Shown: piece after piece, positions 4,420-31,559 of the stretch
Layout: every line of letters starts with the position of its first letter
How positions within the stretch are numbered: the first letter of the stretch is position 1
NCBI GenBank assembly: GCA_008933805.1
Contig: WBUH01000001.1
Location: forward strand, 408,344 to 472,343
Direction: 5' to 3'
Length of the DNA stretch: 64,000 nt
Origin: Bacteroidota bacterium
GTDB lineage: Bacteria > Bacteroidota > Bacteroidia > UBA8524
Notes under the pieces: generated by a model
Told to the model about the DNA's origin: nothing
The model's database searches: none
What the model saw: only the letters and a program-made list of their open reading frames with translations
Position numbers and translations under genes: made by a program

Positions 4420-4851
4420 ATGGCTTCAATAAAACTTAAATGTCTTACCAAGACCGAAAATAAATTACAGTTGGGAGTTTGGATAATTGACCCAGAACTT
4501 GATACGTTTATAGAGCAACCCTATTATTTTTTGCAAGCATTGTACGACGCTGCAAAAGAAAAAAATACAGGTGAAATTCTTAGTTTAAACCGTAACGACT
4601 TAACAGATGCTGAGTGGGTTATTAATAATGCACATTTGTACGTGGAGGACGTATGGTTGATTGATGCAAAAAACTACCCCGTAGATGAAAGTGTATTTGC
4701 ATTGGAAGACAGCCAATACCAGAAATTTTGGAAAGATTTGGATAAAGTGCCTTATGCAGAATTTGAATTAACTGTTACTGACCCTAAATGGGTGAGCCAT
4801 ATCAAACAAAACACGACTTGGGAATCAATGGCAGGATTCGTTGGTTATTAA
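4420..4851 (+). CDS. Small acidic protein of unknown function, tail-to-tail with the DUF4157 gene
   Basis: A 143-residue, clearly acidic, soluble protein (for example PELDTFIEQPYY, NDLTDAEWVI, DAKNYPVDESVFALEDS) with several Trp and Tyr and no signal peptide or membrane segment. No family is recognised. Its TAA stop at 4849-4851 overlaps the stop of the oppositely oriented 1378-aa DUF4157 gene (4848-4850), so there is no intergenic terminator. Acidic, compact, 100-150-residue proteins next to nuclease toxins are often immunity proteins; that reading is purely positional here. It is 8 nt downstream of the membrane-protein gene. Confidence 0.65.
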   Translation: MASIKLKCLTKTENKLQLGVWIIDPELDTFIEQPYYFLQALYDAAKEKNTGEILSLNRNDLTDAEWVINNAHLYVEDVWLIDAKNYPVDESVFALEDSQYQKFWKDLDKVPYAEFELTVTDPKWVSHIKQNTTWESMAGFVGY

Positions 4852-7800
4852 TAAACTATCTTACCAGCGGCCTGAGCATCTTGAATGTTTTTTCTGTAAT
4901 TATTTCTTCTGCCTGGCGTATCGGTAGCCCAGTTTGAGTTTACAAAGTTTAACAGGTCGGTTTCATTTGCAAGTGGCGTACCTGCAGGTGCCATAAGTAT
5001 TCCCATAGCAACATTTCTAAAGAGTGTAGTTTGAATTGAAAATGCCCTTATTTGTAAGTCGTTGATTGCCCCTGAACTCCTTAAGCCACTTATGGATAGT
5101 GGGCCGGGGCCAACCGGAGCAGGAAGTCCGATATTTGAAACAGTATAATCACCCTGAGAAGAATTATTCTTTTCCCACCTGCTTGTAGATGCATTCCAGT
5201 CCATATACCCCCATTTAAAAGTAACCGCACTAATAAAATCAGGGTCAGTATCAGGGGTAATGTCAATGTCCTGCCATAATACTTTTTTAGGGTCGGCATC
5301 ATAAGCTCGCTTCATTCCCTCTTCAAACCCTGACTCCATACTTGTATTATCACTTCCAGGCATCGGTACAAGGTTAGAATCAGTAGGTTTTCCGCCTAAA
5401 TTTCCATTTAATAGGTGTGCACGAACCCACCTGGTGCTTCCGCTTGCCAATCCCAACGGTCTTAGTTTGGCAAACGCTGCGGTAAGATTTCTACTTGGAT
5501 TAGGTTCGCCCCCTTCTTCGTGATTATTGTGATCGCGATATAAAAACCTCACATTTCTGCTACTACGTGCCGGGGTGTTATTAAACCCTGCGGAGAATGC
5601 CATGCGGGGTACCAGATGTGTAGCTGCTGAGGCTGAAACGCCAATAATTACAATCTGATCCGCCATGTCGTTCATTATTTGTTCCGCAGTTCTTGGATTA
5701 GGGTCGGTGCTTGCTCTGTTAGTAATGGCGCGCATCTCTTCAGATAATGTTCTCATTGTTCGCAAAGCAGCACGTTTGGCATCGTCTAATTGTCCTGCAG
5801 TTTGAAGTTCGTTTTGCCGTCTTGTTATCCATCCGCCAATATGCTGAGGTTCACTGGCCAATATAAGTTGTGCGCCCGGTCCCGAACCTTGGAAGTACAA
5901 TGAATGCCGTTCCCCACCTTCTCTAAACTCTTTTCTTGCCCTCCACCAATCTCTTACTGCTGCAACCCCTCTTCTCAGTCCGTTCAAGATGGCACCCCCC
6001 ACCCGTATAGCTCCGTCTATAACTCGTAGTATGGCATTATCTATTCGTAGGCGTACGTTAGTGATGGCTCCGCGAATGTGTTCGCCAATGCGGTTAAAGC
6101 CGAACTGATTAGCAAGGAAGCCGATGATAATAGGTATGCTTCGGGCTAAAATACCTTCTAAGAACTCAGCGGCAGGGCCTAAGTTCCCCTGTGCAATATT
6201 GCCCAGCATTTGGAAATAGCTGTTCACTATGCGCAGCATGGGCACAAAGTACTCAACAAAGCTTTGTATGGCATTATAAATAGCGATGATACTATTGATA
6301 ACAGGCATTATACCTGTAATGTCAAGCAAGCTGAGTAGCCATTGGGTAGCGCGCGCAATAATACGGGTACTGATAAAGCTTACCACTGCATCAATCACTC
6401 CGCTCCAAAGATTATCCAAGAACTGGCTGATACGTTCCCAAATTGCGGCAGGGCCACGCTCTACCACATCGCGGATAAACTGCCAAACTCCTGTGGCTAC
6501 TTCTAATGCACGGCGCAATTGGGCAGCGCGTTCAGGGCCTATGCGGCGGGCAAGTAACTCAAAAATATGGTCGACACTCAAGCCTAGTATCTGAAGTATA
6601 AAAGTGAAAATTGACGAGAAGCTTAAATCAGCAGGACGGGTGATACCCATGCCTTCCATCTGACCGAACAGCCAGTCGGCTACACCTCCTACAAGGTGGG
6701 TAAGTATATTATCAAAGAAACGGATAAAGCCTTGTTTCAAGCCTTCTAACAGGTTGAGGAAGAATTGCACAGGGTTGCGCAAAATATCCATAATGGCTTG
6801 TGAGGCATTGCGTAGTAAATCCACAATCAAATCAGGCGGGATGCCTAAAATGCGGCACATTTCACAGAAGAACGTCCATATAGCCCCTGCTATATTTCCA
6901 TCTACAAATACTTGGTACAAAATGGTCATTGCCACGGTTTGCAGTCTTGTCCAAGCGTCGCGCACCTGCAATAGCTGTTGGAATAAAGGTATGCGCGCCA
7001 GTATTTGCTCAATTACGAATGTTTTTATAGGGTTAACAATGCAAGCAGGAATCAACTTCAACGGCCCTAAAACAAAATCGCCCAAACGGCCCATCAGATT
7101 GGTGACGGTATCTACTAACCGCTGCAACATGTTTAGTATGGGTTGTATAAAGCTTACCAAGTATTGCAAGCCTCTTCCTATACTATCAAACAGGTTGATA
7201 ACCGTATTTTGCACCCAATCGGTAAGATTGTTTACCGAGTCTCGCAACCAACTCAGCAGCGATGATGCAAAACTCAGCCAAGTATTGGTGCTTAGTCCGT
7301 CGATAAACGATACGATACGGGTAGCAAATCCCCCCACCGTTTCTGATAGCCAAGCACCAGCTTCGTTAAGTCTTGTTTTAAAGGTATCTACAGTTTGTAT
7401 AACCGCAGGCAGTATAGTATCCCTGAGGGTAGCTTGTTGGGCGGCTACTTCGGCACCGTTATCACCCATGGCGGTAGCCATGCTGTTTACATTAGCCATC
7501 CAGCCTTGTATGGTTTCGCTAAGGTTGGTAATAGCCCTAAGGGGTAAAATATCCAGTACCTTTTGCGCCACTTGTTGCACCGGCTCAATTACAGGGCGCA
7601 GGGTATCTTTTATACCTGTCCATACTTCGCCTACCTTATTGCCCAGCCATTGAACTACTCCGTTTTCATTAGCTTCTCCGGCTTCGTTAGTACCAATGCC
7701 CAGTTTCTCTTTCACCCAGTTCCAAGCAGCGGCTCCGTAATCACGTATAGGCTGTGTCCAATTCCATATTCGTGTACCAAGGTTTTGCAACCATGTCCAT

Positions 7801-8984
7801 ACTTCGCCCGCCGTATTTCGCAGCCAATCCATTACTGGCGCACCGTACGAAGCCCACAAACCACTGAAAAAGTCGCCAATAGGGCGTACAAACTCTACCA
7901 GTTTATCCCACGCAGTAGTGGCCAGCGTGGTTAGGTAGGTTTTCAGTTGGTTAAGGGCTGCAAACAAGGGGGCGCAATCTCCATTGGCAAGTGCTGTTAT
8001 AATAGGTTGTACCGCTTGGTACATGGTGATAAATGCGGTGCGTAAAAAGGTTACCGCTTCGCCCACATTGGGGAATGTATTAAATATACTGCTGAGCGCA
8101 CCCGTAAGTTTTTCACGCAAAAAGCCAAAAATGCCCTTGTCGTTTATTTCGCGCAGCATTTGCACAAACTCAGGCGAGGCAACACTCTCGGCAATGCTCC
8201 ATGCTTGGTCGGCAAGCCAATCGCCTACGCCGCGTTGCACCACAGGTTCTTTTTCCTGTGTGGCGGGCGCAGCGTTGTTGGTTTCTCTTCTTGCTACTGC
8301 TCCTTGCTGCACCGTGTGCGTCAACTCGTGCGCAAGCAACGATTTTCCGTTGTTTGAATGCGGATTATACTCGCCTGAATTGAAATAAATGTCTTTACCT
8401 ACAGTAAATGCTCTTGCACCTAAACCTTTGTTAAAGTTTTGAGCATAAGAGCCGGTATGCACTTTTACATTACTGAAATCGGCTCCGATTTTTGAGCCCA
8501 TTTCACTGCTAATACTGCGCGGTAGGGGAGAGCCTCCGCCCCTTGTACTTTGGATGGATGACGATAGTTTTGAAGAGGCAAAACCTCCGTTGGGTAAGGC
8601 TGCACCTTTGGTTTGTATTTTCAGCTCTTCGGTGCCGGGTTGCTCATCTTTGGTAGCGACTGATGCTTTGCGCTGTATGGGTTCTTTCTCTTCTTCTTTG
8701 CGTTGTACTTCCTCTTCTTGTTCTTTCCTGCTAACTTTTTCTTCCTCTTCCTTGCGGTTTACTTTTTCTTCTTTTTCACAATCAGTGCATTTGCGGCTGA
8801 TGGCGGGCATCATGCTGATGGTGCTTGCCTTGGGGTTGCCGCACATGGGCATCCGCATCACCTTATCGGCAACGGCGTCCGCTTCTTTTTCTTCGCGGTC
8901 GTTTACACCGCCCACACGAAGTTTTGCCTGCAAACGGGTTGAAGGCTTTTCGGGCTTGGGGCTATATGCTAATGCGACTGACAT
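4848..8984 (-). CDS. DUF4157 (eCIS-core) giant protein with C-terminal nuclease-like domain; probable injection-system cargo
   Basis: A 1378-residue protein, last gene of the injection-system operon. The N-terminus carries the conserved segment LRVGGVNDREEKEADAVAD (22-40) and a CTDC motif (66-69), then a charged repeat region of RKEEEEKV-like units (about 70-106). The DUF4157 domain (about 150-230) contains the zinc-peptidase-like HELTH motif (His219, Glu220, His223). Residues about 260-1050 are long amphipathic helices rich in Trp (IWNWTQP, AAAWNWVKEKLG) with hydrophobic stretches that could insert into membranes. The last 190 residues contain RAHLLNGNLGG (His1190) followed by SNLVPMP, the spacing seen in DNA/RNA non-specific endonucleases. 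DUF4157 is known as the eCIS-core domain. A nuclease cargo carried by the particle is my inference. Confidence 0.85.
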   Translation of the reverse strand: MSVALAYSPKPEKPSTRLQAKLRVGGVNDREEKEADAVADKVMRMPMCGNPKASTISMMPAISRKCTDCEKEEKVNRKEEEEKVSRKEQEEEVQRKEEEKEPIQRKASVATKDEQPGTEELKIQTKGAALPNGGFASSKLSSSIQSTRGGGSPLPRSISSEMGSKIGADFSNVKVHTGSYAQNFNKGLGARAFTVGKDIYFNSGEYNPHSNNGKSLLAHELTHTVQQGAVARRETNNAAPATQEKEPVVQRGVGDWLADQAWSIAESVASPEFVQMLREINDKGIFGFLREKLTGALSSIFNTFPNVGEAVTFLRTAFITMYQAVQPIITALANGDCAPLFAALNQLKTYLTTLATTAWDKLVEFVRPIGDFFSGLWASYGAPVMDWLRNTAGEVWTWLQNLGTRIWNWTQPIRDYGAAAWNWVKEKLGIGTNEAGEANENGVVQWLGNKVGEVWTGIKDTLRPVIEPVQQVAQKVLDILPLRAITNLSETIQGWMANVNSMATAMGDNGAEVAAQQATLRDTILPAVIQTVDTFKTRLNEAGAWLSETVGGFATRIVSFIDGLSTNTWLSFASSLLSWLRDSVNNLTDWVQNTVINLFDSIGRGLQYLVSFIQPILNMLQRLVDTVTNLMGRLGDFVLGPLKLIPACIVNPIKTFVIEQILARIPLFQQLLQVRDAWTRLQTVAMTILYQVFVDGNIAGAIWTFFCEMCRILGIPPDLIVDLLRNASQAIMDILRNPVQFFLNLLEGLKQGFIRFFDNILTHLVGGVADWLFGQMEGMGITRPADLSFSSIFTFILQILGLSVDHIFELLARRIGPERAAQLRRALEVATGVWQFIRDVVERGPAAIWERISQFLDNLWSGVIDAVVSFISTRIIARATQWLLSLLDITGIMPVINSIIAIYNAIQSFVEYFVPMLRIVNSYFQMLGNIAQGNLGPAAEFLEGILARSIPIIIGFLANQFGFNRIGEHIRGAITNVRLRIDNAILRVIDGAIRVGGAILNGLRRGVAAVRDWWRARKEFREGGERHSLYFQGSGPGAQLILASEPQHIGGWITRRQNELQTAGQLDDAKRAALRTMRTLSEEMRAITNRASTDPNPRTAEQIMNDMADQIVIIGVSASAATHLVPRMAFSAGFNNTPARSSRNVRFLYRDHNNHEEGGEPNPSRNLTAAFAKLRPLGLASGSTRWVRAHLLNGNLGGKPTDSNLVPMPGSDNTSMESGFEEGMKRAYDADPKKVLWQDIDITPDTDPDFISAVTFKWGYMDWNASTSRWEKNNSSQGDYTVSNIGLPAPVGPGPLSISGLRSSGAINDLQIRAFSIQTTLFRNVAMGILMAPAGTPLANETDLLNFVNSNWATDTPGRRNNYRKNIQDAQAAGKIVY

Positions 8985-9002
8985 GATAGAGGAAGGTGTT
9001 TG

Positions 9003-10391
9003 CTACATAGTACGTCCGTATTTTTTATATTCTAACTTAATTCCGTTTAAAATATCTGCGTTGCGAATGATGGAGCCTCCGCGTCTCAGTGCCATTAATG
9101 AAGCGTACTGAATTACGTTCATTATTACTCCGCCGCTCATCTCGTATTTTGAGGCTATTTGCTTAAAATCAACGTTGTCATCAAATGTAACAATGTCTGA
9201 AAAGCCTTGTTTCCAAAGTTTATAGCGGTGTTCAGCATCGGGAATAGGGAAGTGGATAATGCTTTGAAATCGACGGGCAAAGGCTTCGTCGATATTGCTG
9301 CGCAGGTTGGTGGCCAAAATGGTTAATCCTGCATAATCTTCAAGCCGTTGCAACAAAAACGAAATCTCTTGATTGGCATATCGGTCGTGCGAGTCGTTTA
9401 TTTGGGTACGTTTGCCAAACAGCGAATCGGCTTCGTCAAAAAACAAAATCCATTGATTTTTCTCGGCTTCATCAAAAATACGCGCTAAGTTCTTAGCCGT
9501 TTCTCCAATGTATTTTGAGATAATTTTTGATAAGTCAATCCTATACACATCTAAGCCTGCCTGTTTACCCAAAACGGAAGCTGTAAGGGTTTTTCCTGTA
9601 CCGGGCGGGCCGTAAAACAAGGCTCTGAAACCGGGACGCAGATGTTTATTCATGCCCCAGTCTTCAACAAGAGTGTGGTTGTGTTGCACCCATGTTTGTA
9701 TGTACTCAACCCCTTCCATGGTATCTTGTTCAAGCACCAAATCATCCCATTCTAAAGGGGTATTAAGTAGCTTGGCAGGAAAATCAACTCCGTAACGGGG
9801 CTTGCTTTTAGTGCCTAGTGTAAAATACTCCAAATAGTTGTGTGTGATGGTGATAGGGAAGGAAGTGTAAGGCTCTGAAGGGTCAACACTATCGCTTTCT
9901 AATACACTGTTTGTCCAAAAAAAGTGCGATGGTCCAAAGTGTTTTACATAAGTAAACCTCGATTCAGCATCTTGTCCTGCGATAATAAATAAGAAGGTTT
10001 CAAAGGTGGGCAAAAAGCCGTTGGCGGTTTTGCCCTTTTTTCCGCCGAACTCTGAAAACACTTGCCCTGTGTTTTGGTTGGTAATCAAGAAAACATCCAG
10101 CAATTCAGGGCTTATGTGGGGAGCCATTGACAACGCCAATAAAAGACGTTCGCTAAATCCCAATTCAAAATCATTGACATAGCGTGAATATGGCGACCCA
10201 TTGTCTCCACTTAATTTGGGTGGCTCTACCTCATAAATGTTGGTAATGTCTCCCGCATCGCTTCCAAAGTTTAAACGTGCGCGTGTGTCCAATACCGCTG
10301 ATAGCCAACGCAATTCATTGGCTATTGTGTAGGCAATTGTGCCTGCGGGGGTGGTTTCTACCATGCTACTGTCAGTAATTCTTTGCTCCAT
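9003..10391 (-). CDS. AAA+ ATPase of the contractile injection system
   Basis: A 462-residue protein. The N-terminal part (about 1-210) is the winged, non-catalytic region common to eCIS ATPases. The AAA+ module follows, with Walker A GPPGTGKT at 261-268, Walker B ILFFDEAD with Asp319 and Glu320, a sensor region ILATNLRSNID and an arginine-finger-type segment EAFARRFQSIIHFPIPD. Every eCIS subtype carries one such ATPase (Afp15/Pvc15). It acts in the producing cell, probably in particle assembly or cargo loading, rather than in recycling a sheath as ClpV does. The start codon overlaps the end of the tape-measure-family gene by 34 nt and the DUF4157 gene follows after 18 nt. Confidence 0.93.
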   Translation of the reverse strand: MEQRITDSSMVETTPAGTIAYTIANELRWLSAVLDTRARLNFGSDAGDITNIYEVEPPKLSGDNGSPYSRYVNDFELGFSERLLLALSMAPHISPELLDVFLITNQNTGQVFSEFGGKKGKTANGFLPTFETFLFIIAGQDAESRFTYVKHFGPSHFFWTNSVLESDSVDPSEPYTSFPITITHNYLEYFTLGTKSKPRYGVDFPAKLLNTPLEWDDLVLEQDTMEGVEYIQTWVQHNHTLVEDWGMNKHLRPGFRALFYGPPGTGKTLTASVLGKQAGLDVYRIDLSKIISKYIGETAKNLARIFDEAEKNQWILFFDEADSLFGKRTQINDSHDRYANQEISFLLQRLEDYAGLTILATNLRSNIDEAFARRFQSIIHFPIPDAEHRYKLWKQGFSDIVTFDDNVDFKQIASKYEMSGGVIMNVIQYASLMALRRGGSIIRNADILNGIKLEYKKYGRTM

Positions 10392-11914: not shown

Positions 11915-11925
11915 TTACAGCATAC

Positions 11926-15159: not shown

Positions 15160-15182
15160 AACGCATTTTTTCTTTTATGGGT

Positions 15183-19163: not shown

Positions 19164-19176
19164 TTACTACAATCGT

Positions 19177-22100
19177 TTATTTGTTACATCCGCACTCCTC
19201 TAATTCGTTAAACACGGGCGAGTACACCAGGTTACTGCCGCAGTTGCTGCAAAAACAACCGCTGCCCTCCAGCGGGGTTAATGTGTGCGTGGCGTATGAG
19301 GTAAACACCGAAGCTGCTGTAGTTGCCTCTGCTGTATCGGTATCTGCATTAGCGTTTACATTCAGCCAAGCGGGGGCGTGTATGTGCATTTCTACACACT
19401 GCACAAAATCTACATACTCCAACTGCTCAATGTGATAAATAAGGTTGCTTTTGTGTATGGTGGTGCCAAACAGCAACTCAGCATCGCTGTTATACGCCCA
19501 AGGGGCTAAAAACTCAGTGATTTTTTCGTGAAGTTTATCCAAGCATATTCCCACGTCTTCGCCGTCGTAAAAACGTACTTGCAAACGCACTTCCACCTCT
19601 TCGTAAATGGGGTTTTGTACCTCAATTTTTGCATGCGGTGTAGTACAGGTGGCAAGGTATGCCTTCACATCTTCCAAGGTACTTTTTGATACTTTGGGCT
19701 TCAACGGGTCTAAGGCATTTTGGTTATACGTGTCGGGCACCATTACCACTGTTACATAACCGGGAGCAAGGGGTTTGTAGCCGTTATCAGCACCGCTGTA
19801 ATAGGTGTGGTTGATTGCTTTTACGCGGTGTATGCCTGTAAAATTTTGCAGTATCAGCCGCTCGTAATCCCAAATGGTAATGGCGCGTTTTTTATGGCGT
19901 AAGCGTTCGCTTACCCGCACATAAAATGTGCTTCCGCTTTCTTGGGCTGCTCCGCCAAAAGAGGCATAGGGCTGCGATACTCCTTTTACGGATGAGTTGG
20001 GGGTGAACAGTTTGCTGATGGTTTTTGCCGCAAGGGTTTCGCCCGTGGCTTCTAAACCGTTGTGGGGGTAAAACTCGGCTTGTATGGCTTGCGGTAGTAT
20101 TTGAATGATTTTGCATACCGCGTCGGCATTTGCCGCAACAGCTAACCGAACCCATATCTTATCGGCGGGCATTAATGTATTGCCGGCATTGGCTGTTGAA
20201 GGCAGACTTAGTGTAACAATGCCTGTTTTTAGCAGTCCGTTGGTATTTTCACGTTGTAATTGGGCATCAGTAAAGTTTACCCATTGGTTATTGCTTAAAT
20301 AGCTCCATTCAACAACTGCAGTATCGGCCTCAGGGTTAGAGCTGCCTTCGGCTAATTGAAACAACAAGTTCACACTTTGTGGAGGCACGCAGTTTTCAAA
20401 ACCCAAATATAGTTCGCCTTTGTTACTGAAGGTGGGCAGCAGCGGTTTTATCTGCAAGCCGCCCGATGTGGTATTTTGCTGTGCCGAACCAAAAGGCCCG
20501 CAATGGAAAAACTTTGAGGTTGGGCTACTCAGTAACTCTATGGTTTCTGTAGCTGTGTAAGTAAGGTAAAGCTCCTCAAATTCAGGAGTATAAGGATTGT
20601 TGGGGACATAGTCTAATTGTTTTGTCTTGTCTGTAGCAGCCAATCCTAAGATGATGCCTTTTCCATACGAAAGTTGATACTCATCGTGCAAAAAGTCATA
20701 GCTGTTTAGTTCAAAAGCTAAATACCCTCTGTTTGAAGTGGTAGCATACCTTTTCCCTGCATCCGTATCTGGGTCTATTGTACTTGTTGTGAAACCCGAA
20801 GCTACCCATGTTTTGGGTGAGGTAGGTACAATGTCTGTAGATTCAAACATTGAAACCGCAGTTCCGTCGTCCCATTCGTTGCCGCTTAATAGATAGGGTT
20901 TTACGTTGTAATCATTGGTTTTGGGTTTTACTGTTGCCGAATGAAAGTTTGCATGATAGTCATAAAACTTAACAGCAGGCAGGTTGCGCCATTTAAAAGA
21001 GGCTTTTACTTGAGTGATTTTTTTTGAAAAAGCTTCGTTACTGCCTACATAAAACCTTGAGCCGATGACAGGTCGGGCACCAAAAGGCTGCATCGGCTTG
21101 GCGGGGTCTAATACTCCTTGCTCGTTTTGAAGTATCAGGGTTTTAAGCCCTGTTACATCAACCTGTATGCTTACATTTTTAATATTAAGTGTTTTTAACT
21201 GTTCAAATGCTGCATTCGTAGTCCCTTTTGCAAAGGTTATTTTCAGGCAGGGATATTTTGCATTAAACCCTTCGCCGTGTGTTTTGGAGTTGTAATCAAT
21301 AATTGCTTTTGCCGCTTTTGAGAAACCGAATTTAATGGTAAACGTAGCCCCGCTAAGGGTAGCTGATTGTACACCTGCTGCTCCATCGGCTCCTGTGGCC
21401 AAGGCAGCGGTGAGGTCTTGCTCTATCCAACCCTTTTCTCCGGTTGCGGTAATGATAAAATCAGTAATGGCAAGCAACTGTGGTGTTGGGTTAGGGATGT
21501 TGGTTTCTAACTCAAACGTAAGGGTCACAATCCGCACTCCTTCGGCCATGCGCAGGGTAGGGGATTCTATAGCAAACCCAAACGGGGTTTCTTCGCGGCT
21601 TTCATCGCCAAAGGGCAGCCATCCGCTTTCTTCTTTCGTTAGTTCTTCACCTTTGCCGTCGTTACTGTTGGCTATTGCTGAGGCAAACAGTTGGCGGCTG
21701 TTTTTAGCATAAATGCTGCAAATGCTGGTGAGCGAGGATTTATTTAAACTATAATCATCCGTAAGTGCATACAGTTTTTCAACACCGTTTACTTTTTCAC
21801 CTGTTTTAAACAAAGTACCTTCTTCAATCTCAAATGCGGCAATGTGTTTTGCCAACTGACCTATCAGGTACACTTGGTCGGGGATGGCTTCGTTTTCGGC
21901 AAAGCCCAATACATCGCGGTAAAAGAACTCAAGGTGTTTAGTGCCAAGCGTATTTAAATCGGCTTGCGCAATGGCAAACAATTCTAAGAATGCTGCAAAC
22001 AGTGCAAAGTGGGGAGCGGTATATCCGGCTTCGTCTAACTGCTGGGTAAAAAACTCTTTCCAGCCGCCGTTGGGGGTATTTGTATGGTCGTAATAGTTAT

Positions 22101-22251
22101 AATGATTGGCTGTTTCTTTAGTAAACTCCAGCAAGGCGTTAAAATCGCGTTCATCAATCTGCACAAATTTTTCTTTCAGGCCTTCGGGGAGCCTTTTCAC
22201 CTGGCTGGTGCCTTGGCGTTGTACGCCTGCTGTGAAACAGTTTAACGACAT
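19177..22251 (-). CDS. Baseplate J-like wedge protein (Afp11/gp6-like)
   Basis: A 1024-residue protein with the baseplate J hallmark in its last 300 residues: YVRVSERLRHKKRAITIWDYE, then LILQNFTGIHRVKAINHT, APGYVTVVMVP and IYEEVEVRLQVRFYDGEDVG. The N-terminal part (FNALLEFTKETANHYNYYD) and the central beta domains are typical of the large eCIS versions. The protein ends in an unusual Cys-rich tail with Cys999, 1001, 1004, 1020 and 1022, which could bind a metal or form disulfides in the finished particle. It follows gp25 by 8 nt and precedes the second wedge protein by 13 nt. It should form the ring that links spike hub and sheath. Confidence 0.88.
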   Translation of the reverse strand: MSLNCFTAGVQRQGTSQVKRLPEGLKEKFVQIDERDFNALLEFTKETANHYNYYDHTNTPNGGWKEFFTQQLDEAGYTAPHFALFAAFLELFAIAQADLNTLGTKHLEFFYRDVLGFAENEAIPDQVYLIGQLAKHIAAFEIEEGTLFKTGEKVNGVEKLYALTDDYSLNKSSLTSICSIYAKNSRQLFASAIANSNDGKGEELTKEESGWLPFGDESREETPFGFAIESPTLRMAEGVRIVTLTFELETNIPNPTPQLLAITDFIITATGEKGWIEQDLTAALATGADGAAGVQSATLSGATFTIKFGFSKAAKAIIDYNSKTHGEGFNAKYPCLKITFAKGTTNAAFEQLKTLNIKNVSIQVDVTGLKTLILQNEQGVLDPAKPMQPFGARPVIGSRFYVGSNEAFSKKITQVKASFKWRNLPAVKFYDYHANFHSATVKPKTNDYNVKPYLLSGNEWDDGTAVSMFESTDIVPTSPKTWVASGFTTSTIDPDTDAGKRYATTSNRGYLAFELNSYDFLHDEYQLSYGKGIILGLAATDKTKQLDYVPNNPYTPEFEELYLTYTATETIELLSSPTSKFFHCGPFGSAQQNTTSGGLQIKPLLPTFSNKGELYLGFENCVPPQSVNLLFQLAEGSSNPEADTAVVEWSYLSNNQWVNFTDAQLQRENTNGLLKTGIVTLSLPSTANAGNTLMPADKIWVRLAVAANADAVCKIIQILPQAIQAEFYPHNGLEATGETLAAKTISKLFTPNSSVKGVSQPYASFGGAAQESGSTFYVRVSERLRHKKRAITIWDYERLILQNFTGIHRVKAINHTYYSGADNGYKPLAPGYVTVVMVPDTYNQNALDPLKPKVSKSTLEDVKAYLATCTTPHAKIEVQNPIYEEVEVRLQVRFYDGEDVGICLDKLHEKITEFLAPWAYNSDAELLFGTTIHKSNLIYHIEQLEYVDFVQCVEMHIHAPAWLNVNANADTDTAEATTAASVFTSYATHTLTPLEGSGCFCSNCGSNLVYSPVFNELEECGCNK

Positions 22252-22259
22252 TGTTTATA

Positions 22260-22706
22260 CTATATATCGGTAGCTTCTTTTAAATAAAAAGGGTACACCA
22301 TGTTGTTGCGGGTGTTGGTGCTTATCACCGTGTATTCAACCACTAGCATAATTAAACCCTCGGTTTCGGTAACCAAGGTTTTCACATTATCTAGTTTTAT
22401 GCGGGGTTCAAAGTAGATAATAGCCTTGCGCACACGGTCTTTTAATCGGGTTAGCAAGCCTATGTCCATGCCTTCAAACATTAAGTCCTGCAAGTCGCCG
22501 CCGTATTGGGGTTGCATTACCCGCTCACCCAAGGCAGTTGAAAACAGTATTTCGAGGCTTTGGTTAATGTCTTCTTCTCCTTGTGCAAGATGTACGCCTG
22601 CATTACCGCCTGCGGCATGCTTAAAGAAGGCGGGCGGAAATGTCCATCCTCTGCCTAAAAATGTATTGATATCTTTTGCTTCGGGTTTCACAGTGTTATC
22701 CTCCAA
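22260..22706 (-). CDS. gp25/GPW-type baseplate protein
   Basis: A 148-residue protein matching the GPW/gp25 family over nearly its whole length: FLGRGWTFPPAFF near the start, then EEDINQSLEILFSTALGERVMQP and YGGDLQDLMFEGMD. The ERVMQPxYG segment is the family's best-conserved stretch. gp25 forms the inner baseplate and nucleates sheath polymerisation. Its first 11 nt overlap the end of the PAAR gene, and the baseplate J gene follows after 8 nt, in the order expected for spike and baseplate genes. Confidence 0.93.
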   Translation of the reverse strand: MEDNTVKPEAKDINTFLGRGWTFPPAFFKHAAGGNAGVHLAQGEEDINQSLEILFSTALGERVMQPQYGGDLQDLMFEGMDIGLLTRLKDRVRKAIIYFEPRIKLDNVKTLVTETEGLIMLVVEYTVISTNTRNNMVYPFYLKEATDI

Positions 22707-22977
22707 TAATTACAGTTGGGCAGCCTACTGCCGACATGGCTCCGCAGGCACAGGTATCAGAAGTGCGCAAGGCAGGTTTGCCGCCTATAAGCACAGTGCC
22801 TGAGCCGCTTGTAAAAGGGCTTGACGGTACGTGCCCCGATTGGGGCGGTAAGGGGCAGGTGTGCATATCGCCCAGCACGGCGGCGGGTTTGCCTCCTACC
22901 AAAACATTGGCTACACCGGGGCCTACAATGCTGCCCCCGTGTGTACTTGCGTCTCCTACTGTTGCTGCTGCTGCCAT
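22696..22977 (-). CDS. PAAR-type spike tip protein
   Basis: A 93-residue protein built of PAAR-like repeats: DASTHGGSIVGPGVANVLVGGKP, broken here as GPGVANVLVGGKPAAVLGD, then CPLPPQSGHVP and GSGTVLIGGKPALRTSDTCACG. PAAR proteins form the sharp zinc-stabilised cone at the tip of VgrG-type spikes. His and Cys residues (HTCP, CACG, VGCP) are consistent with metal binding. It is placed immediately after the VgrG-like gene (7 nt) and overlaps the gp25 gene. No extra toxin domain is attached. Confidence 0.93.
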   Translation of the reverse strand: MAAAATVGDASTHGGSIVGPGVANVLVGGKPAAVLGDMHTCPLPPQSGHVPSSPFTSGSGTVLIGGKPALRTSDTCACGAMSAVGCPTVIIGG

Positions 22978-22984
22978 TGGTTTA

Positions 22985-24712
22985 TCAGTTTATTTGTACC
23001 ATGCTTCCTTTTATAGTGGTGGTGCCGCCCGATGATACTTCGGAACCTGCGGAACCTTCTCCCTTAAATTTTGCAGAGGCACTTATCTCCACATTTACGC
23101 CTTCTATTTTCACGTCTCCGGTTGCCTTTAGGGTGATATCAGCGCCGCTTTCAAGGGTAATACCGTCGCTGCTTAGGGTAAGTGTGTTATTGTTGGCATC
23201 TTTGGCTACAATACTGCCTTCGGCTTCATCAATTACCACGCTGTAGCCGCCGGGAGTTTCTATGGTTACGCTGGGTGATTCATCATTAAATACCAGCTTC
23301 ATCCCGCTACGGGTAACAATGCCTTTTTCGTTATTGTCTTCAGTAGCTTCTATCATAGGGGGGATGCCACTGCTGTATAATTTTCCTAGTATGATGGGAT
23401 TGCGTGGGTCGTCATTCAAGAAGCCCAATACCACTTCGTCATTCAATTCAGGAAAAAATATCCAGCCGTGTGAGTCGCCGGCATCGGGGGCTGTCATGCG
23501 CGCCCAAATACCTTCTCCTTCGTTATCCACTAAGGGTAATTTCACTTTCACGCGGCTTTCGCCGTCGGGGTCGTTGTGTATGGCGGTAACAATGCCTATT
23601 TGCAGTCCGTTTACCGCGGGTAGTAATCCACTGGCAGGTTTTTCAACAACATCGTCATAGCGGTGGGCGAACAAATCTTTGGTAATCCCGAATTGCAAAT
23701 CGCAATACCAGCCCATTTCGTTGTTGAAATAATGGTTCACAGCAGTGATTACCGTGGTGCCGTTAAAGCGGTTTCCAAAGCCCTGAAAGTTGATTAATGT
23801 TCCAGTGGCGTAGCTATGCTGCCCCGAAACCCTGATGCGGCCTTGTATTTTGCTAAGTCGACTGTATAGGAGCCTACTATCGGCCCAAGCTTTGTTTTCT
23901 GTTTCATCAATTTTTCCGCCGTGATACACGGTATAATCTTCCCACTCCATCACACTCGAAAGAGTGCTTCCGTCTAAATCTCCTTGTGTGGCCAAGCTGG
24001 GTTCAGAGGCTTCGCTTTCAGTAATCTCCTGATTGGTGTAATTCCAAGTTTTTGCCTTTACAGCGGGAAACTGGTCGCGGGCATCAATCTCCGCTTCAAA
24101 CTCGTAAGTATCCAGTCCGAAGTTGAAGGTAGTTTCGGCTGAACCCCCTGCGGGGGCTTTTATTTCTATTTTATTTTGGTTGATTAGTACCCATTTGCCG
24201 TTCAGTTCGGCGCGGGTTACTATAAAATCCCAATCGGTACAGTTGTACTGCACCATTTCTTTGTGGGTTACGCTGGTGCTTTCAATGTCTTTATCAATCG
24301 ATGCTGCCCCTATCAACTCATCAAAAATGTCAGCATCTTTTACATCGTTGTACACTTTGTTTTTGCGCGCACCGGTTAGTACTACAGCCTTGTGGCGGCA
24401 CTCCAATTCAAGGTTCGGGTTTTCATAGTTGTTTATTTTTATGCCGTGTTTGGTAATGATGCCGTGAAAAATGGCTTGCTTATCAGAGCCGTATCCTGCG
24501 TTCACTTGTATTTCAGCTCCGGGCGCAAATATGTCTTCGTTGCTGTGCGGAAAATCCTGCGTGGCATTGTCGCCGTCCATCAGCACAATTTTGGCAACGG
24601 GTATTTTGTTCACACTGCTGTTGGTGGCAATGCTCAAAAGGCCGTACTGCCCGCCAAGGGCTGTTCCGTTCACCAATATCTCAAACGATGCAATTTCTAA
24701 TGCGGCGGGCAT
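22985..24712 (-). CDS. VgrG-type spike protein
   Basis: A 575-residue fusion with the gp27-like hub in about the first 340 residues (ASFEILVNGTALGGQYGLLS, DWDFIVTRAELNGKWVLI). A gp5-type OB domain covers about 365-450, with IGIVTAIHNDPDGESRVKVK and GWIFFPELNDEVVLGFLNDD. A repetitive beta-helix needle covers about 490-565 (TLTLSSDGITLESGADITLK). It trimerises at the centre of the baseplate and carries the PAAR tip encoded next. It is longer than gpV alone, and no lysozyme domain is present between OB fold and needle, as usual for eCIS. Confidence 0.94.
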   Translation of the reverse strand: MPAALEIASFEILVNGTALGGQYGLLSIATNSSVNKIPVAKIVLMDGDNATQDFPHSNEDIFAPGAEIQVNAGYGSDKQAIFHGIITKHGIKINNYENPNLELECRHKAVVLTGARKNKVYNDVKDADIFDELIGAASIDKDIESTSVTHKEMVQYNCTDWDFIVTRAELNGKWVLINQNKIEIKAPAGGSAETTFNFGLDTYEFEAEIDARDQFPAVKAKTWNYTNQEITESEASEPSLATQGDLDGSTLSSVMEWEDYTVYHGGKIDETENKAWADSRLLYSRLSKIQGRIRVSGQHSYATGTLINFQGFGNRFNGTTVITAVNHYFNNEMGWYCDLQFGITKDLFAHRYDDVVEKPASGLLPAVNGLQIGIVTAIHNDPDGESRVKVKLPLVDNEGEGIWARMTAPDAGDSHGWIFFPELNDEVVLGFLNDDPRNPIILGKLYSSGIPPMIEATEDNNEKGIVTRSGMKLVFNDESPSVTIETPGGYSVVIDEAEGSIVAKDANNNTLTLSSDGITLESGADITLKATGDVKIEGVNVEISASAKFKGEGSAGSEVSSGGTTTIKGSMVQIN

Positions 24713-24716
24713 GGGT

Positions 24717-25436
24717 TTATACTTTTTCTATGGGTGGAAAAGCAAGATGTGTAGCTTGTTTTAATTTTCTAAAGTTGTTCAGACGGTTCACCTCAGCAAT
24801 TTTCAGGTAATACTGTGGGTCGTTGTAAATTTCAGAGGTCATGTACGGCAAGTTATCCATACCGTTTGCAGTAACGTAGTGGGTAAGGTCGGGACTGTTA
24901 CGTTGGGCTTCGGCAGCTTGTTCTTCCAGCGCCTTGTGGCTCATAAAAGTGCAGTTTACCTTAGCCCGCAATGGCTTCCCGTCAGGGGCAAACAGTGAAT
25001 AGGTAACCTTTGCAGTGGTTAACACTCCTTGAAACAACAAGGTACCCCAACTTACTTTTAAAAAATTAGGACGGTGCGAACTTGGTTGCAACTCAAACGT
25101 AAGACGCAAAAAACGTTGTATCGAGTCTTCCACATGACCTTCAGCACGTATCAGTGCAAATTCGGCCTCGTTGCCCGTGTGCGAAGCTCCCGTTGCGTCC
25201 CAAAGCAATTCAATTGTTAGGTCTTTGCCTTTTGCGCTTTTAAATTGGGGCAGGCTGTCGGTAGCATTTTCAGGCCTTTCTGTATCAAACTCGTTTTTGT
25301 ACTCAACATCATAGGTATTGGGGTTGTACAATACATCAAAGGTGCCTACAATTTTTTTGTAGGTTTCGTCACTATGTGCAATTATGTGCACCTTAGTGAG
25401 GTTTCCCGATGGCATAAATACATTTTCAATTCCCAT
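24717..25436 (-). CDS. CIS tube-junction protein with C-terminal LysM-like domain (Afp7-like)
   Basis: A 239-residue protein. The N-terminal two thirds match the contractile injection system tube protein domain (GTFDVLYNPNTYDVEYKNEF, SAKGKDLTIELLWDATGA, then PNFLKVSWGTLLFQGVLTTA and VTYSLFAPDGKPLRAKVNCTF). The C-terminus (about 185-235) has a LysM-like stretch ending YLKIAEVNRLNNFRKL. In Afp/PVC particles the matching protein joins the spike hub to the first tube ring. It lies between the small DUF5908-like gene (3 nt) and the spike gene (4 nt). Confidence 0.9.
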   Translation of the reverse strand: MGIENVFMPSGNLTKVHIIAHSDETYKKIVGTFDVLYNPNTYDVEYKNEFDTERPENATDSLPQFKSAKGKDLTIELLWDATGASHTGNEAEFALIRAEGHVEDSIQRFLRLTFELQPSSHRPNFLKVSWGTLLFQGVLTTAKVTYSLFAPDGKPLRAKVNCTFMSHKALEEQAAEAQRNSPDLTHYVTANGMDNLPYMTSEIYNDPQYYLKIAEVNRLNNFRKLKQATHLAFPPIEKV

Positions 25437-25439
25437 GTG

Positions 25440-25595
25440 CTATCGTTCGTTTTTTGCTTTTACAATGGTTTTTATCTCGTCCACGGCCTTTTTCAGGCGT
25501 TTGTCCAAATCAGAATTTGTCGGCGGTGTTCCAGCACTTCCAGTGCTTTGTCCCACCTGTACAGATACTACTATCTCGTTTATTTGTACGGGCAT
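25440..25595 (-). CDS. Small DUF5908-like injection-system protein
   Basis: A 51-residue protein starting MPVQINEIVVSVQVG and ending in a Lys-rich helix (LDKRLKKAVDEIKTIVKAK). Short proteins beginning MPxxIxELxI with a charged helical tail, placed between tube genes and the LysM gene, are annotated DUF5908 in eCIS clusters. I chose the ATG at 25593-25595 because it lies 4 nt after the stop of the tube gene and starts the conserved motif; a longer in-frame reading would overlap the tube gene. Its role is unknown; its position suggests a tube or baseplate assembly factor. Confidence 0.7.
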   Translation of the reverse strand: MPVQINEIVVSVQVGQSTGSAGTPPTNSDLDKRLKKAVDEIKTIVKAKNER

Positions 25596-25599
25596 ACGG

Positions 25600-26055
25600 T
25601 TAAATAATTGGGATGGCTCTATAGTATTGGTAGGCAAGCTCCACCTGTTCTACCATCAGTTGAGGTTCTTGAGCGTTTAATCCCGTTACACTCCATTTCA
25701 CAGGGTAAGCCTGTACCACGTTCCATGCGTGCAGGGGTACGTGGTCTTCGTTCAGCAAGGTGATTAACAGGTCTGACGGAGTAAAATGAAACTCCTCAAC
25801 TCCTTTTTTGAACCAAGAGATTAGCTGTGAATGGTTGAGCATTCCGCGTTTAAGTGTAATGTTGCTAAATGTGGCAGTAGTAGGCAGCTTGTGCGAGAAA
25901 CGGTTTTCACCTCCCTCTTTAAACTCTTCGGTAGTTACAGTAACATCAAGCCCTGTAACTTCCTGAAAGCCAATGTCGGGTATGCCCGGCATCAGAGCCA
26001 CCAAGCCAATAAAATTTACACTAAAGTGCAGCCCTATGGGTGGGTATTTAAACAT
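25600..26055 (-). CDS. Tail tube protein, gp19 family (second copy, Afp5-like position)
   Basis: A 151-residue protein of the T4 gp19-like tube family: N-terminal FSVNFIGLVALMPGIPDIGFQEVTGLDV (two overlapping segments), then the family motif FSNITLKRGML near the middle, and ELAYQYYRAIPI at the end. It has the same plan as the 143-residue tube protein just upstream (NITLKRGM/I, hydrophobic W-x-V turn, C-terminal helix), so the two are paralogues. Having a main tube protein plus one or two adaptors that make the first rings next to the hub is the known arrangement in Afp/PVC. Being nearest to the LysM gene, this copy is the likelier adaptor. Confidence 0.88.
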   Translation of the reverse strand: MFKYPPIGLHFSVNFIGLVALMPGIPDIGFQEVTGLDVTVTTEEFKEGGENRFSHKLPTTATFSNITLKRGMLNHSQLISWFKKGVEEFHFTPSDLLITLLNEDHVPLHAWNVVQAYPVKWSVTGLNAQEPQLMVEQVELAYQYYRAIPII

Positions 26056-26073
26056 ACTTCCCTATGGTTTCGC

Positions 26074-26505
26074 TTATACAGCCTCTACTGTTAAACCTTC
26101 GTGTGCCAGCTCAATGCTTTCCATTGCCACCTCGTTGCCGGTGCTGTTAAGCGTTGGTCCTTCAACTTTGCAAGGCCAGCAGTTGCGCACTTTCCACACC
26201 ATCACAGGGGCGTGTTCTTCGTTCAGCAAGCTGATGGTAATATCACGACGCTCAATGTTGTTTAGTTTCACGGTGTTCAACCATTTAAAAAACTCATTGT
26301 CGCCTTTATAAATACCTCTTTTTAGGGTGATGTTTGAGTATTTAGGAATACCGGGCATTTTGGTGGTGTGGTATTCGGGCGATACGCCTTCCCTGTATTC
26401 AATTGGTTGTACTTCAACGGTTAGTCCGCTTGCTTCTGTGAAACCGATGCGGCTGCCACCCCATTCAACTTGGAAGTGGAATACCGGAACTGGATAAGTT
26501 GCCAT
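26074..26505 (-). CDS. Tail tube protein, gp19 family (first copy, probable main tube)
   Basis: A 143-residue gp19-like tube protein: VFHFQVEWGGSRIGFTEASG, VQPIEYREGVSPEYHTTKMP, then the hallmark YSNITLKRGIYKGDNEFFKW, and EVAMESIELAHEGLTV at the end. It stacks as hexamers inside the sheath and encloses the cargo. It directly follows the shorter sheath gene (22 nt) and precedes its paralogue by 18 nt. Being adjacent to the sheath genes, it is the best candidate for the abundant tube subunit, but which copy dominates the particle cannot be read from sequence. Confidence 0.9.
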   Translation of the reverse strand: MATYPVPVFHFQVEWGGSRIGFTEASGLTVEVQPIEYREGVSPEYHTTKMPGIPKYSNITLKRGIYKGDNEFFKWLNTVKLNNIERRDITISLLNEEHAPVMVWKVRNCWPCKVEGPTLNSTGNEVAMESIELAHEGLTVEAV

Positions 26506-26527
26506 AGTATTTATAATTGATTAGTGT

Positions 26528-27934: not shown

Positions 27935-27947
27935 AGTTTAATAAGGT

Positions 27948-29699: not shown

Positions 29700-29811
29700 A
29701 GTTTATAGTATTCGGTTACGTTTTGTTTTTTCCTTTTATAAAGTCAAACCGTGTTATGCAATCTCAAATCTTCCCTTTTCCTGCGTGATAGCTATTCGCT
29801 TTCCTTTTCCA

Positions 29812-30954: not shown

Positions 30955-31559
30955 CAGTTTTTACCTGCTAAGTCAATACCAAGGTTTTCAATTAGTCCTG
31001 CGGGTTCTATACTGTTTTCTTGTATAGTTATCATCCGCACTTTATACAACACACTGGGCAAATAGTTAGTGCCCACTACGCTCCAAAAATTATTCATCTG
31101 TTCAAACGTAAACGAGAACAGCTCTAACACCAGTTTGGGTATCTCGGGAGCCAATGTGGCCATCAACGGCGAATTGGCAGGTGTAAAAACACTCTTACCC
31201 TGAAAGAAGCCGATAATATTGCTCAGTTGTTTCAATCCCTCAATGTAATCGTCGCCTGTATCTGCCAGCTCATTATTGGTGTAGTTGGCAGAGAAGAGGA
31301 CGTATAGATTAAGGTAGATATCGGGATTGCGGGCATCAAAACCTCCGGCGGTGTTGCGCACCTTTACCTGTTGATCTTTTGATACTCGGTCTTCTTCGAT
31401 GTTTATTAGTGAAACCCCTATGGTTTTGTTGGGTATAGCTAATCCTTTTGAGTTTGCAACGCTGGTTAGTACTGCCAAATCACTCATTGCCCCACCTGTT
31501 TTTAAGTTCAGGTAACGGTTCACTTCTTGAGTAAGAAAATTAAGGGCCGAATGAATCAT
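30954..31559 (-). CDS. DUF4255 tail terminator/cap protein (Afp16/Pvc16-like), first gene of the eCIS operon
   Basis: A 201-residue protein. The ATG at 31557-31559 begins MIHSALNFLTQEVNRYL, the usual start of DUF4255 (Pvc16 N-terminal) proteins; an in-frame TTG six codons upstream would add residues not seen in the family. Typical stretches are VGVSLINIEEDRVSKD (here IGVSLINIEEDRVSK), NPDIYLNLYVLFSANY and LELFSFTFEQMNNFWSVVG. The family forms the hexameric cap that ends tube and sheath polymerisation. Being first in the operon, 75 nt behind the predicted -7 box, is typical of eCIS. Confidence 0.92.
   Translation of the reverse strand: MIHSALNFLTQEVNRYLNLKTGGAMSDLAVLTSVANSKGLAIPNKTIGVSLINIEEDRVSKDQQVKVRNTAGGFDARNPDIYLNLYVLFSANYTNNELADTGDDYIEGLKQLSNIIGFFQGKSVFTPANSPLMATLAPEIPKLVLELFSFTFEQMNNFWSVVGTNYLPSVLYKVRMITIQENSIEPAGLIENLGIDLAGKN

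Follow-up and report, generated by a model that had tools for sequence, protein, structure and literature searches.

The extracellular contractile injection systems (eCIS) closest to the locus described here are AlgoCIS, from Algoriphagus machipongonensis, and the thylakoid-anchored system (tCIS) of Anabaena. The tube of AlgoCIS is filled by DUF4157 cargos, particles still form without them, and none of the bacteria tested with AlgoCIS was affected (PMC8894135); attachment to bacterial cells is mediated by Alg19 (PMC13314943). In Anabaena, an extension of Cis12 touches the membrane (PMC8894136). Among eCIS-associated toxins, linkers of more than 1000 aa have been noted, and for most verified toxins no adjacent immunity gene was found (PMC8213781). 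We analysed a stretch of 64,000 nucleotides from a Bacteroidota genome (hereafter, the window) that contains an operon related to these systems.

An eCIS operon of 17 genes

The operon occupies positions 4848-31559 of the minus strand (26,712 bases) and holds 17 ORFs (Table 1), each a multiple of three in length and with no internal stops in a frame check; gene lengths add up to 26,544, with overlaps counted twice. Distances between consecutive genes, for which a few starts are alternative TTG starts, are -1, 112, 13, 22, 18, -38, 3, 4, 7, -11, 8, 13, 23, 11, -34 and 18 nt, i.e. none above 23 nt with the sole exception of 112 nt, in agreement with the compact minus-strand operon described in the initial annotation. 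The curated Pfam cut-off was exceeded by 14 of the 17 ORFs, with the families Pvc16_N, sheath C-terminal domain (twice), gp19 tube (twice), CIS_tube, DUF5908, Phage_base_V, PAAR, gp25, Baseplate_J, CIS_TMP, AAA and eCIS_core, and the proteins of 380, 1077 and 1326 aa, without any family above it, were identified by sequence searches against the PDB. Cap, sheath, tube, spike, PAAR, gp25, two wedges and an AAA+ ATPase all lie in one cluster and, judged from sequence, the presence of this set in a single operon is far beyond chance. Together, the profile and PDB searches and the order of the genes identify the operon as an eCIS, nearest to AlgoCIS and the Anabaena tCIS.

The initial annotation had also recognised an eCIS, and this part of its interpretation stands, including the sheath homology, which is present in profile searches (Table 1). 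It erred in leaving the 380 and 1077 aa proteins without a recognised family, since they correspond to a cap adaptor and to an Alg19/Cis19 tail fibre, and it overlooked both the swapping of tips on a tape-measure-like carrier and the possible immunity gene beside it, which are described below. No second eCIS copy was found in the genome (97.67% complete, 40 contigs), which contains one eCIS_core gene and one CIS_TMP gene, and a sheath query retrieved only the two sheaths of this operon.

Table 1. Features of the eCIS locus, from the start of the operon to the convergent downstream gene; positions refer to the window.
Feature	Position	Strand	Evidence and remarks
Tube cap, Pvc16_N / Alg16A type, 201 aa	30954..31559	-	PF14065 5.3e-31; ATG start at 31559
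Cap adaptor, Alg16B/Cis16B type, 380 aa	29812..30954	-	phmmer to SalCis16b 2.3e-6
Sheath paralogue 1, 583 aa	27948..29699	-	PF17482 2.2e-12
Sheath paralogue 2, 468 aa	26528..27934	-	PDB: tCIS All3325 3.9e-138, AlgoCIS 9.4e-130
Inner tube protein, gp19 family	26074..26505	-	PF06841 3.3e-49
Second tube / tube-initiator protein, gp19 family	25600..26055	-	PF06841 1.1e-39
DUF5908, candidate spike plug (Alg6 position)	25440..25637	-	PF19265 1.3e-7
Alg7/Afp7-type tube-initiator LysM protein	24717..25436	-	PF19266 4.9e-44; All3321 1.2e-44; AlgoCIS 3.8e-41
VgrG-like spike (Alg8)	22985..24712	-	PF04717 9.6e-22, PF05954 4.3e-9
PAAR tip (Alg10)	22696..22977	-	PF05488 2e-21
gp25 wedge initiator (Alg9)	22260..22706	-	PF04965 1.2e-21
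Baseplate J / Alg11	19177..22251	-	AlgoCIS chain 7aeb_G 2.4e-137, All3317 2.5e-125; alignment extends into spike-cage region
Baseplate wedge Cis12/Alg12, 1326 aa	15183..19163	-	All3315 3.9e-134, Algo12 2.1e-99
Tail fibre / crown protein Alg19/Cis19, 1077 aa	11926..15159	-	All3314 8.2e-45, 9wt0 chain a 5.3e-35
CIS_TMP, tape-measure family protein (Cis14), 518 aa	10358..11914	-	PF19268 3.6e-97, full model
AAA+ ATPase, Cis15 by position	9003..10391	-	PF00004 1.2e-29; PDB matches are general AAA+ proteins
Effector: eCIS_core (DUF4157), tape-measure-like carrier and exchangeable C-terminal warhead, 1378 aa	4848..8984	-	PF13699 3.4e-29
Carrier, effector residues 1-1001	5982..8984	-	97.2-99.7% identical in four relatives
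Warhead, effector residues 1041-1378, predicted H-N-N endonuclease	4851..5864	-	Endonuclea_NS_2 0.012-0.014, below cut-off
H-N-N motif of warhead	5340-5423	-	residues H1190, G1198, N1204, N1213
Candidate immunity gene, 143 aa, pI 4.5	4420..4851	+	convergent with effector, overlaps its stop codon

A profile built from eight sequences of the cap adaptor retrieved SalCis16b at 9.6e-10 and, at 0.0023, the cap adaptor of AlgoCIS. Names borne by homologues indicate Bacteroidota as the phylum of this genome. One homologue of the cap adaptor (P0124, 84% identical) is filed under the cyanobacterium Oscillatoria amoena, and we take it as likely derived from a companion bacterium in that assembly. The two sheath paralogues share 74% identity across their C-terminal 209 aa, and the DUF5908 protein aligns nearly full-length, at non-significant values, with Algo6 (E 0.32) and Asl3322 (E 0.99). 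The chain matched by the fibre, 9wt0 chain a, is Alg19 by length and deposit (9WT0 being a tail-fibre deposit). Homology spans the N-terminal half of the fibre plus a single short segment, too little to read the target from it.

An effector with a constant carrier and exchanged tips

The last gene of the operon, after the AAA+ ATPase, encodes an effector with DUF4157 at residues 153-228. Stretches of its residues 270-1019 match PHROG tape-measure families (phrog_58 at best, 8.4e-20, and nine more to E 0.0013), values that composition may inflate in long amphipathic helical proteins such as these, and a simple hydropathy scan located six hydrophobic segments in the carrier (644-959) and one in the tip.

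Relatives whose carriers are 97-99.7% identical to that of the window bear tips that are unrelated or merely distantly related to its own. For instance, only three of 1000 carrier residues differ between the window and P0002, and the two warheads show no meaningful BLAST match to each other (E 3.6), indicating that the warhead has been swapped. Likewise, P0003 and P0004 combine carriers that are 98.2% and 97.2% identical to the window's with other tips, and the window and P0001-P0004 together display three kinds of tip. A constant N-terminal carrier joined to an exchanged C-terminal domain, the mark of polymorphic toxins, is what these proteins have.

The window's tip is a predicted DNA-cutting enzyme, as deduced from the conservation of its motif: the four residues H1190, G1198, N1204 and N1213 are conserved in all 41 tips retrieved with it, which were chosen by BLAST alone and not by motif, and E1221 is found in 40 of them. 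In the window's tip, the usual RGH has alanine in place of glycine. The P0003 tip matches Endonuclea_NS_2 at 2.6e-5, below the cut-off, and the tips of the same type in P0001 and P0006 gave no Pfam nuclease match; a related carrier in another genome (G293) bears a nuclease tip that exceeds the Pfam cut-off (1.5e-16). AlphaFold modelled the 377-aa C-terminus poorly, with a pLDDT of 59, from an alignment of 39 rows, and the best Foldseek match of the tip model, at E 0.56, was not significant, so we claim no fold for it; the 39 rows had been picked by motif, and for this reason the conservation of the residues is based on the BLAST-picked tips instead. Two strands followed by a long helix are predicted around H1190, an arrangement that would fit a beta-beta-alpha-metal nuclease and was not counted as evidence.

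A candidate immunity gene

The gene that runs head-on towards that of the tip encodes an acidic 143-aa protein, a candidate for protecting producer and kin, with the caveat that toxin-immunity pairs are usually co-directional and not convergent. We found two homologues, one of them nearly identical, and neither an immunity family above the cut-off nor a fold match. In G293, the gene for the nuclease tip is followed after 11 nt by a gene of the SUKH immunity family (6.6e-9, above the cut-off). Among 11 DUF4157 proteins of more than 1000 aa from ten other genomes, the small protein encoded downstream was scanned for four, one of which belonged to a recognised immunity family.

The evidence is evenly balanced between this role and a gene unrelated to the toxin, belonging instead with an upstream gene for a membrane-like protein of 187 aa (3849-4412). 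The two genes lie on the same strand, opposite to the effector, with a 7-nt gap, and the lack of family and fold matches also suits such a pairing; however, so small a number of homologues is expected of fast-evolving immunity genes, and the protein is strongly acidic and its gene extends over the toxin gene's stop codon.

Possible modes of action

We consider it reasonably probable that the operon specifies a released particle of the AlgoCIS/tCIS kind, whose Alg19-like fibre binds bacteria and which injects a tape-measure-like carrier with an exchangeable tip, here a predicted nuclease. The part list (with the plug as a candidate only), the DUF4157 domain and the tape-measure similarity of the carrier are read from the sequence itself, and it is from homology to AlgoCIS that we infer release and injection into other cells. 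The particle would be freed from the producer and attach to other bacteria through the fibre, with the carrier packed in the lumen of the tube, as reported for AlgoCIS and its DUF4157 cargos. Contraction of the sheath would push the tube with its cargo across the envelope of the target, the hydrophobic helices of the carrier may aid the tip across the membrane, and the tip would cut nucleic acid, likely in rival bacteria. Replacement of tips by recombination at a fixed junction would alter the effect of the weapon, leaving the loading module unchanged.

It is unlikely that the particle acts inside its producer, as a Streptomyces-like cytoplasmic system whose tape-measure-related nuclease effector hits its own cell or sisters under stress. 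Tme from S. davawensis joins DUF4157 to a tape-measure region and an EndA-like nuclease and acts on its producer's development (PMC11126660); the effector here shares this layout. Pfam recognised no lysis gene among the 17 ORFs; nevertheless, the operon includes an Alg19/Cis19-type fibre, its effector gene comes last whereas tme is described directly upstream of baseplate genes, and the J wedge matches the CIS of S. coelicolor, of a different group from that of S. davawensis, at E 0.0037, against 2.4e-137 for AlgoCIS. A particle anchored to a membrane, of the Anabaena thylakoid or T6SS-iv type, that discharges from the cell or from what is left of it seems quite improbable to us, even if sheath, wedge Cis12, Alg7 and fibre all score best to tCIS proteins and the wedge (1326 aa) is close in length to the Cis12 of tCIS (1335 aa) and exceeds Alg12 (933 aa). 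The long middle part of this wedge does not align with Cis12, the J wedge has its best match in AlgoCIS, and a hydropathy scan detected no hydrophobic segment in the 1326- and 1077-aa proteins. Moreover, none of the 17 ORFs of the operon, the region covered here, encodes a separate Cis13-like protein with a membrane helix, and CIS13_fam gave only sub-threshold matches, one at the N-terminus of the fibre. Finally, we regard a non-functional remnant of a phage tail or CIS in decay as extremely improbable: nothing speaks positively for it beyond the effector being found, among the five genomes of the family, only in the window's own, whereas all 17 frames are open, catalytic-type residues are kept and full-length homologues of carrier and cap adaptor exist elsewhere.

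The released, phage-tail-derived particle could also serve as a weapon that tells kin from rivals, a possibility that we hold as doubtful. Related strains would make one and the same particle and tape-measure cargo, and would exchange just the final 350 residues of the latter plus a private immunity gene (in the window, that of the 143-aa protein), and the particles of each strain would kill relatives with another tip. If true, the length of DUF4157 linkers would be accounted for, and most eCIS toxins would gain the immunity genes that have been missing for them.

A further role for the effector, as tube ruler, was not adopted. Both landmarks used, HExxH and a conserved GFLAN-type motif, are present in 95 of 121 proteins (the window's and 120 homologues). 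The distance from the first to the second peaked at about 690 and at 735-750 residues; a smaller group fell at 1045-1117, and other values lay in between. These proteins had been restricted in length and are related by descent, and AlgoCIS particles form free of cargo. At the edges of the island, the transketolase has counterparts of 80-81% identity in three of the family's four other genomes, and a 263-aa protein has 31-35% matches in all four. Flanking genes were compared around the transketolase in three genomes and around the 263-aa protein in one, and none was shared beyond the gene adjoining the latter, so an empty site could not be demonstrated.

Comparison with known systems

This system is one of many eCIS, and its added value lies in a natural experiment, in which carriers that are three in 1000 residues apart bear unrelated tips. 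The swap suggests that the first 1000 residues suffice for loading, and makes simple to test two matters that the eCIS literature leaves open, namely what very long DUF4157 linkers are for and the lack of immunity genes. Effectors with a DUF4157-linker-toxin layout or related to tape measures are already published; what is new here is the evidence for swapping in the last gene.

With AlgoCIS (PMC8894135, PMC13314943), the window shares the cap and cap adaptor, Alg7, Alg11 with its cage region, Alg12, the Alg19 fibre and a DUF4157 cargo. It differs in having two sheath proteins instead of one, a wedge about 390 aa longer than Alg12, a fibre of 1077 aa as compared with 1443 aa, and one long tape-measure-like effector in place of Cgo1 and Cgo2. 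The Anabaena tCIS (PMC8894136) shares the sheath, Alg7, the wedge, homologues of the crown protein Cis19 and a long Cis12, whereas the window's operon has no separate gene for the Cis13 membrane anchor and the middle of its wedge does not align with Cis12.

Tme (PMC11126660) resembles the window's effector in its N-terminal DUF4157, tape-measure similarity, hydrophobic segments and predicted H-N-N nuclease tip. However, Tme has at least 2247 aa and the window's effector 1378 aa, and the latter has a tip that matches the nuclease profile weakly and belongs to a machine of the AlgoCIS/tCIS kind; being encoded last in the operon, it would be Tme-like in its working and fall outside the Tme gene-cluster group. 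The eCIS-associated toxins (PMC8213781) likewise consist of DUF4157, a long linker and a C-terminal toxin, but the linker in the window matches tape-measure families and is common to near-identical carriers with different tips.

Organization of the operon and its nearest relatives

The initial annotation placed 17 genes in a single operon, and we indeed find 17 minus-strand ORFs, all open and almost without gaps. Pfam assigns 14 of them, and the other three were identified by comparison with solved structures. In the window's genome (97.67% complete), eCIS_core and CIS_TMP were found once each, and a sheath query matches nothing beyond the operon's own pair of sheath genes. The system is intact, of the type of AlgoCIS (from Algoriphagus machipongonensis) and of the thylakoid-anchored tCIS of Anabaena, and it has a notable cargo; its interest lies in a swap junction within this cargo and in a testable immunity candidate.

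Features and PDB sequence searches, in window positions
Feature	Position	Strand	Details
Operon	4848-31559	-	ATG at 31559, stop at 4848
Effector gene	4848-8984	-	last gene of the operon
Candidate immunity gene	4420-4851	+	143 aa, head-on to the effector gene, four-base overlap with its end
Membrane-like gene	3849-4412	+	187 aa, ends 7 nt before the 143-aa gene
Sheath paralogues	26528-29699	-	two genes
Sheath			PDB search: All3325 3.9e-138; AlgoCIS 9.4e-130
J wedge			PDB search: AlgoCIS 2.4e-137; All3317 2.5e-125
Cis12 wedge			PDB search: All3315 3.9e-134; Algo12 2.1e-99
Alg7 position			PDB search: All3321 1.2e-44; AlgoCIS 3.8e-41

AlgoCIS and tCIS are the top two relatives in the four PDB searches with the sheath, the J wedge, the Cis12 wedge and the protein at the Alg7 position, in which the PVC and AFP homologues had much lower scores. 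Proteins of 380 and 1077 aa, initially left without a recognised family as possible lineage-specific parts, turned out to be known components. A profile of the 380-aa protein and seven homologues matches SalCis16b (9.6e-10) and the AlgoCIS cap adaptor (0.0023), whereas the 1077-aa protein matches All3314 (Cis19; 8.2e-45) and chain a of 9WT0 (5.3e-35); judged by sequence, they are the cap adaptor and the fibre or crown (Alg19/Cis19), respectively. The 9WT0 entry is described as the wedge-bound AlgoCIS tail fibre (PMC13314943), and its chain a is Alg19, because its length equals the 1443 residues given there for this protein. The names attached to homologues point to Bacteroidota as the phylum. 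A cap adaptor homologue with 84% identity, P0124, bears the name of a cyanobacterium, Oscillatoria amoena, but probably comes from a companion bacterium. A DUF5908 protein occupies the place expected for the plug Alg6, its alignment to Algo6 (E 0.32) being suggestive only, and the AAA+ ATPase, whose PDB matches are general AAA+ proteins, is named Cis15 by position. Unlike AlgoCIS, which has a single sheath, the operon contains two sheath paralogues, with 74% identity over their C-terminal 209 residues and 45% over the approximately 254 N-terminal ones.

Near-identical carriers with exchanged tips

The effector, of 1378 residues, contains an eCIS_core domain (residues 153-228) with an intact HELTH motif. 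Between residues 270 and 1019, stretches of the protein resemble PHROG families of phage tape measures (8.4e-20, 2e-19, 2.4e-18, 7.3e-18 and others weaker), with scores that composition can inflate. A hydropathy scan located six hydrophobic segments in the carrier (residues 1-1001; segments within 644-959) and one in the tip (residues 1041-1378). In a sample of 395 genomes of the phylum, which includes that of the window, 48 have a match to the effector at E 1e-30, many of these matches covering the DUF4157 part only or the second half of the carrier only; among five genomes of the family, the effector appears in the window's own alone.

A search for homologues yielded 202 proteins; 120 of them were listed, and 45 of the listed ones were aligned in windows. 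Among the 45, the four nearest relatives show 92-100% identity to the effector up to residue 950; past residue 1040, three of them drop to 7-38%, whereas P0001 holds 60-98%. We also compared carrier and tip separately in all 15 pairs of the window's effector and its five closest relatives. The effector and P0002 have three differences in their first 1000 residues, and their tips share nothing recognisable (BLAST E 3.6); with P0001, the shared fraction is 97.9% for the carrier and 74% for the tip. P0002, P0004 and P0005 have a common second tip type (49-63% by BLAST), and the P0003 tip is of the nuclease type, distantly related to that of the window (3.9e-8). Clustering was applied to 119 tips, the window's own plus 118 from the listed homologues (all 120 except P0068 and P0108, which are cut short). 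It gave groups of 90, 20 and 2 plus seven singletons under single linkage at E 1e-4, which can chain.

The second tip type is present in 20 of the 119 tips (P0002, P0004, P0005 and 17 others), with a DHQPQA motif in 11 of the 20; the P0002 tip has no match in Pfam. The length of the carrier core shows peaks near 690 and 735-750 residues and a smaller group at 1045-1117; lineage effects or a relation to tube length may account for this.

Predicted activity of the tip

The window's tip carries RAHLLN..LGG..SNLVP, and at E 1e-4 a BLAST search with it retrieved 41 of the remaining 118 tips. H1190, G1198, N1204 and N1213 are kept in all 41, and E1221 in 40, with alanine in P0071; 39 motif-picked sequences agree on the kept residues. 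The Pfam profile Endonuclea_NS_2 scored 0.012 with the window's tip and 2.6e-5 with that of P0003, both under the cut-off, and 1.5e-16 with a related tip from G293, another genome of the phylum; the P0001 and P0006 tips gave no score with the Pfam nuclease profile. The tip shows the same H-N-N logic as Tme of S. davawensis, reported to have nuclease activity (PMC11126660). Our best guess is that it is a nuclease.

A candidate immunity gene

Geller et al. termed the absence of immunity genes a mystery (PMC8213781). The 143-aa protein encoded beside the effector has a pI of 4.5, versus 9.4 for effector residues 1001-1378, a value that falls to 8.1 when the first 40 of these are omitted. Neither Pfam at its cut-off nor NCBIfam at E 0.1 assigns the 143-aa protein to a family. 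From a set of 5.8 billion proteins, 11 candidates were scored and two returned, P0132 and P0133, the latter at 71%. P0132 shows two differences over 142 residues and has no listed source, so it may be the window's own gene; its cluster and that of the cap adaptor homologue P0122 both give 95,064 as the length of their longest contig, so the two probably share one record with a related CIS. The adjacent 187-aa gene has no match in four other genomes of the family.

Our survey covered 11 DUF4157 proteins of more than 1000 aa from ten other genomes of the phylum, one of which matches only the DUF4157 part, and the next small protein was scanned for four of them. One of these, 11 nt behind a nuclease-tipped carrier in G293, belongs to the SUKH family by a Pfam match above the cut-off; two had no match over the cut-off, and the other had weak membrane-protein matches only. 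Support for the 143-aa protein as a candidate immunity protein for the effector is therefore patchy. In G293 there are several consecutive DUF4157 proteins (L049, L050), one being that nuclease-tipped carrier with the SUKH gene behind.

Comparison with known systems

Geller et al. described proteins that join DUF4157 to a C-terminal toxin, with linkers of more than 1000 aa (PMC8213781), and CIS effectors linked to tape measures are exemplified by Tme (PMC11126660) and Sle1 (PMC13277306), so both the layout and the linkage are already described. Our searches of the open-licence literature turned up no earlier description of tape-measure carriers that are nearly identical yet bear exchanged tips.

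The thylakoid anchorage of tCIS is attributed to the Cis13 membrane helix and a Cis12 extension (PMC8894136). A similar membrane-anchored particle, which we retain as a less likely rival, would agree with the window's Cis12 wedge having about the length of tCIS Cis12, but the middle part of this wedge failed to align, the hydropathy scan found no hydrophobic segment in it or in the fibre, and the operon has no separate Cis13-like gene. AlgoCIS particles, in turn, are reported free in the cytoplasm and present in the supernatant (PMC8894135), with Alg19 as their means of binding Echinicola pacifica (PMC8894135, PMC13314943). CIS are enriched in Bacteroidota, and DUF4157 correlates with Alg19 more than with Cis13 (PMC12210884). 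The homologue of the Alg19 fibre in the window's operon, together with the lack of a separate Cis13-like gene and of hydrophobic segments in wedge and fibre, favours a released mode of action, as in AlgoCIS.
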